A stretch of 42,444 nucleotides of DNA, from contig SLJM01000334.1 in assembly GCA_007135085.1 (NCBI GenBank), positions 1 through 42,444 on the forward strand, in the 5' to 3' direction. The DNA is from Myxococcales bacterium (GTDB lineage: Bacteria > Myxococcota_A > Bradymonadia > Bradymonadales > Bradymonadaceae). The position numbers and the translations under genes were made by a program. Positions within the stretch are counted from its first letter, which is position 1. Each line of letters starts with the position of its first letter. This document shows, piece by piece, positions 1-25,933 of the stretch. The notes under the pieces were generated by a model. That model did no database searches and was not told the DNA's origin. It saw only the letters and a program-made list of their open reading frames with translations.

Positions 1-76
1 GCTGTGTTTCGCCTCGGTCTGACGTCAGATTACGGTGGATGTGGGAGAACGCAAAAAAATTCTCGGGGGGTAGAAA

Positions 77-130
77 GTGGTTAGTAGTGGGTGGTTGGTA
101 GTGGGTGGTTAGTGGTGGGTGGTTAGTAGT
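77..130. repeat. G/T-rich heptad arm of two-armed repeat, locus 1
   Basis: The stretch reads as 7-bp steps that alternate GTGGTTA/G with GTAGTGG or GTGGTGG, giving a 14-bp super-period. GTGGTT is the reverse complement of the core of the AACCACN units at 180-375, so this arm can partly fold onto the downstream arm. The 13-mer GGTAGTGGGTGGT at 97-109 recurs exactly at 25831-25843 in the second repeat locus. Confidence 0.8.
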
Positions 131-179
131 TAAAGGCGCCCTGCGGCGATCCAGGCCTTTCGAACCATCAAGATCATTG

Positions 180-375
180 AACCACGAACCACAAACCACA
201 AACCACGAACCACAAACCACCAACCACGAACCACAAACCACAAACCACCAACCACGAACCACGAACCACAAACCACAAACCACAAACCACAAACCACGAA
301 CCACGAACCACGAACCACCAACCACCAACCACCAACCACCAACCACCAACCACCAACCACCAACCACCAACCACA
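180..375. repeat. 28 tandem AACCACN heptads, locus 1
   Basis: I count 28 uninterrupted, perfectly phased copies of AACCACN (196 bp). The first six bases never vary. The seventh base is G in 8 copies, A in 10, C in 10 and never T, and copies 20-27 are all AACCACC. The array has no indels. In translation it yields an artefactual heptapeptide repeat in every frame. It resembles in style the short tandemly repeated repetitive heptamers described in cyanobacteria, but the sequence differs and no kinship is claimed. Confidence 0.93.
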
Positions 376-547: not shown

Positions 548-1636
548 ATGAATCGCATTGGAAAAACTCTTGTATCCCTGTTGGCGATGATGTTGTTAAT
601 CGCTCCCGGGACCGTATTCGCCCAGGACGAAGTAGAAGACCTGCTGGGACCGGATGATGAGCTCGCCCAGGGCGACGACGATGAGGATCGCCCCTGGGCG
701 GTGTCCATGTCGCTGCGCTCGATGGTGGGGCAGGGCACGTTCGCTCAGGTGAGCAACGATACGGAGTGGGCCGGTCAGATCGACGACGGCCGCAACGCCT
801 TCAACCGTTGGAATCTGGTCTTCGGTATCTCGCCGAGCTACCAGGTGGGCGATTTTAATTTCAGCGCCAGCCTGAGCTGGGTGCAGTGGTTGACCCCCGG
901 CGGCGGTAACGCCACGTCCTCCTTGTCCGGTGGCGCCAACGAGCCCTACCAATTCCGATTTCAGGATATCGGTCTCAACGCCGGGTGGCGAACCTTTACG
1001 AGCGACGCCCTCGGGGTCAGCGCCACGCCGTCGTTGAGCGTGCGTCTTCCCACGAGCAAGGTGGCGCGAACGGAGACCCTCCTCCTCGACGTGGGTGCCA
1101 GCCTGTCGCTTCGGCGCACCTTCTTCGACAAATTGACTCTGAGCGGTGGGTTGAGCGCCAACCAATATTTTCACGAATATACCTCTCCGGTGGTCGATAT
1201 AGACGTGGTGGGTCATGACAACGTCCACTACCGCGTCGGCGGCGCCGAGGATATCGAGCCCGGTCGCATCTCCATCGGCGGTCGAAACCTGCAATACCAG
1301 GTGGGCACGACCCTGGGGGCCAGCTTTGGGCTTCCCGCCAATCTATCGGCGAGCATCAATTACGGTCTGTTCAATTATTGGACCTACGACGTGGATAACG
1401 ACGATGAGTTTATGTCGGAGCACGCCAAACCGGGACGTGGCTGGTCGCAGGTGACGATGGGCTCCTTTGGCCTGAGCTATCAGGTCAACGAGTGGATCGG
1501 CACCTCCCTGATGGCCACCACCATTCAGACGCCGAAGACGGCGGATAATAAATCCTTCCGCTTTCCCTTCTGGAATTTCGCCGGCGCCGCCTCCAACTCC
1601 ACGGGCATCACCCTCGGGGTGAGCGGCTCTTACTGA
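548..1636 (+). CDS. Predicted outer-membrane beta-barrel protein
   Basis: The start is placed at ATG 548 because the product then opens with a clean signal peptide (MNRIGKTLVSLLAMMLL...TVFAQ) that would be cleaved before an acidic linker rich in Asp and Glu. The open frame extends upstream to a TTG at 413, but those residues do not look like protein. The mature part (about 340 residues) alternates hydrophobic and polar residues, is rich in Gly, Ser, Thr and aromatic residues, and ends in ...LGVSGSY. That pattern, with a C-terminal aromatic residue, is typical of porin-like barrels inserted by BAM. I do not recognise a specific family, so substrate and role are unknown. It stands alone, with a hairpin terminator about 25 bp downstream. 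Confidence 0.75.
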   Translation: MNRIGKTLVSLLAMMLLIAPGTVFAQDEVEDLLGPDDELAQGDDDEDRPWAVSMSLRSMVGQGTFAQVSNDTEWAGQIDDGRNAFNRWNLVFGISPSYQVGDFNFSASLSWVQWLTPGGGNATSSLSGGANEPYQFRFQDIGLNAGWRTFTSDALGVSATPSLSVRLPTSKVARTETLLLDVGASLSLRRTFFDKLTLSGGLSANQYFHEYTSPVVDIDVVGHDNVHYRVGGAEDIEPGRISIGGRNLQYQVGTTLGASFGLPANLSASINYGLFNYWTYDVDNDDEFMSEHAKPGRGWSQVTMGSFGLSYQVNEWIGTSLMATTIQTPKTADNKSFRFPFWNFAGAASNSTGITLGVSGSY

Positions 1637-25817: not shown

Positions 25818-25823
25818 ACGGCA

Positions 25824-25916
25824 GGTGGTGGGTAGTGGGTGGTAGGTGGTGGGAACTACGAACTACGAACTACGAACTACGAACTACCAACTACCAACTA
25901 CCAACTACCAACGACG
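25824..25916. repeat. Two-armed heptad repeat, locus 2
   Basis: The left arm, 25824-25853, is G/T-rich in 7-bp steps (GGTGGTG, GGTAGTG, GGTGGTA, GGTGGTG). It is followed immediately by AACTACG x4, AACTACC x4 and one AACGACG (25854-25916). GGTAGT and ACTACC are complementary, so the arms can fold into a long hairpin. The left arm contains the same 13-mer (25831-25843) as locus 1. It fills the gap between the convergent sdhB and phosphomevalonate kinase genes and could serve as their common transcript end. Confidence 0.9.
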
Positions 25917-25933
25917 ACGATAATCACAGTTCG

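Follow-up and report, generated by a model that had tools for sequence, protein, structure and literature searches.

An expanded heptanucleotide array in a Myxococcales bacterium as the probable copy of a species-specific, palindromic intergenic element

Among the long simple repeats of many bacteria, heptanucleotide repeats are the most frequent, and to our knowledge there is no good account of why. Several described systems resemble the array that is the subject of this study, which was found in the genome of a Myxococcales bacterium (GCA_007135085.1, a 5.19-Mb assembly in 509 contigs). The GGGAATC heptameric repeats of Xanthomonas occur in arrays of 2-26 units, and 70-75 convergent pairs per genome form inverted repeats (PMC4692102). 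They share with the present element intergenic heptads with partly free positions and an arrangement in inverted pairs, but the heptad is a different one and forms G-quadruplexes, and the passages on them mention neither a conserved core in the loop nor caps nor evidence on insertion sites (PMC4692102). The TAACTGA repeats of Beggiatoaceae (PMC4679880) and the cyanobacterial STRRs are likewise intergenic heptanucleotide arrays that occur sporadically in unrelated phyla. The TAACTGA arrays, however, precede start codons as 2-6 units in direct orientation, are inverted in almost no case and have no core (PMC4679880). Geobacter metallireducens has a dispersed family of 49 copies with four tandem GGGACCG heptads, which are of other sequence, lie also inside genes and have a single arm as described (PMC2700814).

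Two classes of mobile repeats are also close. REPINs/BIMEs, among them the REPINs of Pseudomonas, are intergenic, hairpin-forming inverted doublets with a spacer, present in many copies and built as a mosaic of modules, as is the present element (PMC3116915). In contrast to these, the present stem consists of tandem heptads and not of a single REP palindrome, and the RAYT of the genome has another cognate repeat. MITEs are similar in being short, non-coding and dispersed, with inverted ends, and in being missing from relatives at the same place, whereas for the present element no target-site duplication could be defined and no parent transposase was found, and its ends vary in length. A literature search did not find this heptad in this role, and the papers that contain the heptad string were unrelated.

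The feature described here is probably an expanded copy of a species-specific, non-autonomous, intergenic palindromic element similar to a REPIN or MITE, whose stem grows by slippage. Here the heptads make up the stem of an element that is dispersed in the genome and has a conserved loop, and in unrelated phyla this stem is found again around other loops. What was an unexplained repeat statistic thereby becomes a defined object, open to tests of its mobility, of the growth of its stem and of its partner enzyme.

The array in the window and its two versions

The window, which is the whole stretch of DNA analysed, comprises 42,444 nucleotides and represents the entire contig SLJM01000334.1 (C2). 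Its features, all on the forward strand, are as follows.

1..64, + strand: unique flank that a part of contig C221 matches exactly (contig comparison)
76..131, + strand: left stem arm of eight in-phase heptads, NGTRGTT and NGTRGTG alternating (unit-by-unit reading, repeat finding)
132..179, + strand: loop core AAAGGCGCCCTGCGGCGATCC...GATCATTG, 48 nt, the conserved identity sequence of a dispersed family (loop comparison, model search)
180..375, + strand: right stem arm of 28 in-phase AACCACN heptads with 0 indels (unit-by-unit reading, repeat finding, shuffles)
548..1636, + strand: downstream gene of 362 aa without a Pfam match (ORF and Pfam)
25823..25917, + strand: second two-armed array, coreless, with GT-rich heptads followed by about nine GAACTAC/CAACTAC heptads at 25853-25917 (repeat finding)

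Tandem Repeats Finder placed the left arm at 77-130 (period 14, 3.9 copies, 90% match) and the right arm at 180-374 (period 7, 27.9 copies, 94% match, 0% indels). The coordinates and counts of the preliminary description, a GT-rich arm followed by 28 in-phase AACCACN units without an indel, were thus correct. A three-unit pattern gave 32 matches in the window and 0 in each of 100 shuffles. The upstream ORF is located on contig C221 and points away, so that the intergenic region holding the element is a divergent one. The in-phase, mainly intergenic 7-bp tandem units of the element qualify as a heptanucleotide SSR or STRR. The window copy is composed of core and heptads without caps, and its heptad number is above that of every other complete copy seen. 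Its strand is predicted to fold into a long hairpin of -95.6 kcal/mol (z -3.8 vs shuffles), for which the sliding of registers suggested earlier is possible on paper.

The seventh base of the 28 right-arm units is A in 10, C in 10 and G in 8. It is never T, as had been noted before, although this absence is only weakly unusual given the usage of T in sister copies (p about 0.03). The last units had also been described as homogenised to AACCACC, which applies to a run of eight consecutive units ending in C but not to the very last unit, which ends in A. Runs of the same seventh base number 13 against 19.6 expected (p 0.007), so that neighbouring units are alike beyond chance, in agreement with an array that grows when one or a few units slip.

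The end of contig C221 shares with the window the 64-bp flank and an identical core, whereas both arms differ in length and sequence. The arms therefore seem to change more quickly than the loop. The simplest reading is that C221 and C2 represent a single locus, of which the sampled population carried two array versions; the alternative is a misassembly, as both versions come from a fragmented assembly of 509 contigs and arrays of short tandem repeats are prone to assembly errors. Together, the likeness of neighbouring units and the arm differences in the overlapping end of C221 suggest that the window array has expanded, in line with the expansion by slippage proposed earlier.

The second array of the window, at 25853-25917, directly follows the stop of a succinate-dehydrogenase-like iron-sulfur gene and was absent from the preliminary description, which dealt with 77-375. 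Arrays on C311 and C506 of the same genome are without a core as well.

A dispersed family around a conserved loop core

The layout of two arms and a loop recurs on many contigs of the genome in pattern searches, and the loops of the family, here called family A, can be aligned (GTTAACGGCGCCCTGCGRYGA...TCGATYCATCTCGATCATTGAAC). A sequence-only model (R1) built from 15 loops and applied at a threshold of E<0.001 gave 34 matches in the own genome and 0 in 23 relatives, that is, four congeners and 19 others. The exact core AACGGCGCSCTGCGRYGA was found 11 times in the own genome and in none of 56 relatives. In a sample of 377 genomes of the phylum, the two-armed pattern occurs in one, the own genome (24+24 matches), and is absent from the other 376; the reversed-pattern control gave 0 matches. 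A dispersed family had been suspected in the preliminary description, together with a check of uniqueness. When this check was run on the own genome, neither the left arm nor the array proved unique, and the family reading stands. The array itself had been taken as the object, whereas conservation is seen in the loop core together with its stem. The exact core GGTTAACGRCGCSCTGCGRYGA gave 0 matches in a species-genome collection from which the own genome may be missing, the core had no match among plasmids, and the two-armed pattern had none in viral contigs. Three matches of the core in viral contigs were all without arms and were attributed to chance.

A typical copy is an interspersed palindrome of ~150 bp with an arm of three to four GTRGTTN heptads, a conserved core of ~50 nt starting with GTTAACGGCGCCCTGCG, an arm of four AACYACN heptads and GCGAGCGAAGCGAGC-type caps. 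In 19 copies aligned over about 150 bp, the ends lie at GCGTTCGCTTCGCTCAC and GCGAGCGAAGCGAGC and the order of modules recurs. On the left, the cap GCGTTCGCTTCGCTCAC is followed by three GTRGTTN heptads, one further heptad and the core, with a second cap-like insert before the last left heptad in about half of the aligned copies. On the right, four AACYACN heptads follow the core; next come the cap GCGAGCGAAGCGAGC and TAACCAC, often with one more cap behind them. The modules on the left and right do not mirror each other strictly.

Two reports describe heptads as the most frequent class of long simple repeat in many bacteria (PMC4679880, PMC4692102), and the arrays could accordingly be ordinary heptanucleotide microsatellites that arose by slippage from seeds, with inverted pairs formed by chance or template switching and no mobile element involved. 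The runs of the seventh base and the existence of coreless arrays in the own genome (25853-25917, C311 and C506) agree with this, and slippage alone is the best account of the length of the window array and of the coreless arrays. Slippage does not, however, explain why about 30 unlinked places have one 50-nt core and one module order in common, and at the C397 locus described below the insertion is absent from the orthologous place in four congeners. For the cored copies the microsatellite reading is largely refuted by the shared core, and as an explanation of the feature it is unlikely.

The arms had been said to be of opposite complementarity. This holds at the hexamer but not at the seventh base, where only 8 of 67 heptad pairs (12%) in the own genome are Watson-Crick pairs, compared with 25% in element shuffles. 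Accordingly, the idea that the arms are copies of each other was rejected for the own genome. No covariation was seen at the R/Y position of its arms, and the hexamer is nearly invariant and therefore uninformative on covariation. A G-quadruplex is not favoured as a conserved feature, since about a fifth of the left heptads are without GG (GTAGTT). The strict hexamer with a free seventh base would also suit protein-binding arrays, in which inverted heptad sites are occupied, for example, by a nucleoid or partition protein. A period of 7 bp, on the other hand, departs from one face of the double helix, we know of no binding partner for these heptads, and the distribution is restricted to one species. 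We give protein binding almost no weight.

The inspected copies all lie between long ORFs. About 12 of 25 are between divergent ORFs, 3 between convergent ones and the rest between co-directional ORFs in both directions, counts that are approximate because they are based on ORFs. The occurrence in every gene orientation argues against a terminator and fits the tolerance of insertions in longer spacers. A search of Rfam for structured RNAs gave no match at the gathering score, and a permissive scan gave only a microRNA score far below the cut-off. In the loop alignment, neither conserved secondary structure nor compensatory changes were found. These results bear on the view that the element is a regulatory RNA or a transcript-end structure that stops or protects transcripts, or whose stem length tunes its neighbours in a manner similar to phase variation. 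Its strong predicted hairpins, the location of about half of the copies in divergent intergenic regions, hence near promoters, and the different arms of the two array versions would agree with such a role. But with no Rfam match, no conserved base pairs within the loop, arms that are unpaired at the variable base and copies in every orientation relative to genes, a regulatory role is improbable, and the functional RNA considered in the preliminary description found no support.

Related cores and the rpmG/rpmB-like locus

The core start AACGGCGCSCTGCG occurs 30 times in the own genome, compared with 1 for a control. Some of these copies lie between GGGTCNT/AAGACYC heptads, here called family B, or beside GGGGTGGAG-type blocks. 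Family B is a hairpin of about 120 bp with at least 15 copies, which are 86-91% identical in the copies compared, and many of them are nested in a longer unit whose inverted ends read GTGTGATC.... The similarity between the A and B cores is solid over the first 14 nt. Beyond these, the profile detects 2 of 18 B loops, a lower bound because part of these loops had been read in reverse. Copies of family B were seen on C357, C475, C346, C130, C123, C145, C229 and other contigs, and the family, often within the larger unit with inverted ends GTGTGATCCACCTTGATCGGTAATC / GTGTGATCGGTTTTGGTCGGTTGTC, looks like a MITE. The heptads of both families fit one grammar, RGTYNKK (A: RGTTNGT, B: RGTCNTG), in which R and N are variable, which may be a coincidence.

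The family-A copy on C397 matches other copies at 71-81% over about 150 bp. It is located next to genes that, from their sequences, we take to be rpmG/rpmB-like. All four congeners keep these neighbouring genes and their order, without a family-A element. The intergenic sequence of the congeners is too diverged for a target-site duplication or a nucleotide-exact empty site to be defined in the C397 spacers. A loss of the element from four congeners is possible, but less simple than a gain. At the same locus, a sequence resembling the outer end of family B (AACCGATCAAGGTGGATCACAC) encloses other inner arms in congener G004 and less clearly in G003, and in G003 one GT-rich arm is joined to AAAGGCGCCCTGCG. 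The kinds of element parts may thus be older than the species, the family itself perhaps not. In the orthologous spacer downstream of an rpmB-like gene in G004 and G003, the B-like outer end lies by GC-rich repeated arms and not by heptads.

Mobility, partner enzyme and occurrence in other phyla

In the best reading, the family is a real, non-trivial element that works like a REPIN or MITE and is assigned to neither. Its palindromic unit is extragenic and present in many copies in inverted pairs, as in REPs and REPINs; it is also a short non-coding element with inverted ends and presence or absence among relatives, as in MITEs. Its general kind is ordinary, and what is unusual is a stem built of heptads with a fixed loop.

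The own genome has one Y1/RAYT-like gene (C415, about 1243-1881, 212 aa) with an IMPNHVHL motif. Since REPINs are likewise intergenic, hairpin-forming inverted doublets with a spacer (PMC3116915), family A could be a REP/REPIN family moved by this transposase. Around this gene, however, lie different tandem palindromes, GGGGCCGGTGGTCTCCAGACCGTCGCA (core GGTCTCCAGACC), which belong to it and form a separate REP system, so that the repeats at the RAYT gene are not those of family A. No family-A arm, cap or core was present within the C415 stretch read. Movement by the RAYT is therefore very unlikely. As the RAYT lies in its own palindromes and the Rfam and plasmid searches were empty, a trans-acting enzyme is postulated here. 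A candidate for an autonomous parent was considered on C447 (10700-13700), where two inverted half-copies of the core flank 2.3 kb with the gene of a 263-aa protein and small ORFs, but by eye no transposase was recognised among these.

For the REPIN- or MITE-like element, the distribution of copies suggests mobility. A layout and core common to 19 copies, and the absence of the element from the orthologous place in four congeners, indicate that it has spread through intergenic DNA as a unit, most likely via a single-stranded hairpin on which an enzyme of the host or of a transposon would act in trans. Slippage in replication would then gain or lose heptads while the hairpin survives, because in a stem of 7-bp repeats the heptad number can change without destroying it. 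The loop core, and not the stem length, is conserved, suggesting the core as the likely recognition site.

In a search of species genomes, the two-armed GTRGTTN/AACYACN pattern was found in at least 112 stretches, sporadically in about eight phyla and with different loops, compared with a chance expectation of about 0.5 by arithmetic for uniform base composition. The matches listed include Bacteroidota, Planctomycetota, Cyanobacteriota, Gemmatimonadota, Acidobacteriota, Alphaproteobacteria, Bacillota and Verrucomicrobiota-type lineages, and among them some genomes have several stretches each. The loops differ between genomes, and within some genomes they share ends, for example GGTTCCGCA in one planctomycete assembly. 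Heptad-armed hairpins might thus form a general, undescribed class of mobile DNA. In that case, the same stem around genome-specific loops in about eight phyla would point to one kind of enzyme or single-strand mechanism everywhere, with the loop supplied by each genome. We put this forward as a tentative and rather doubtful proposal. As the search fixed the hexamer, its result says nothing on a preference of this heptad over others. In the 80 listed two-armed loci of other phyla, the seventh bases pair in 68%, compared with 27% in shuffles; the arms of these loci are copies of each other, unlike those of the own genome.
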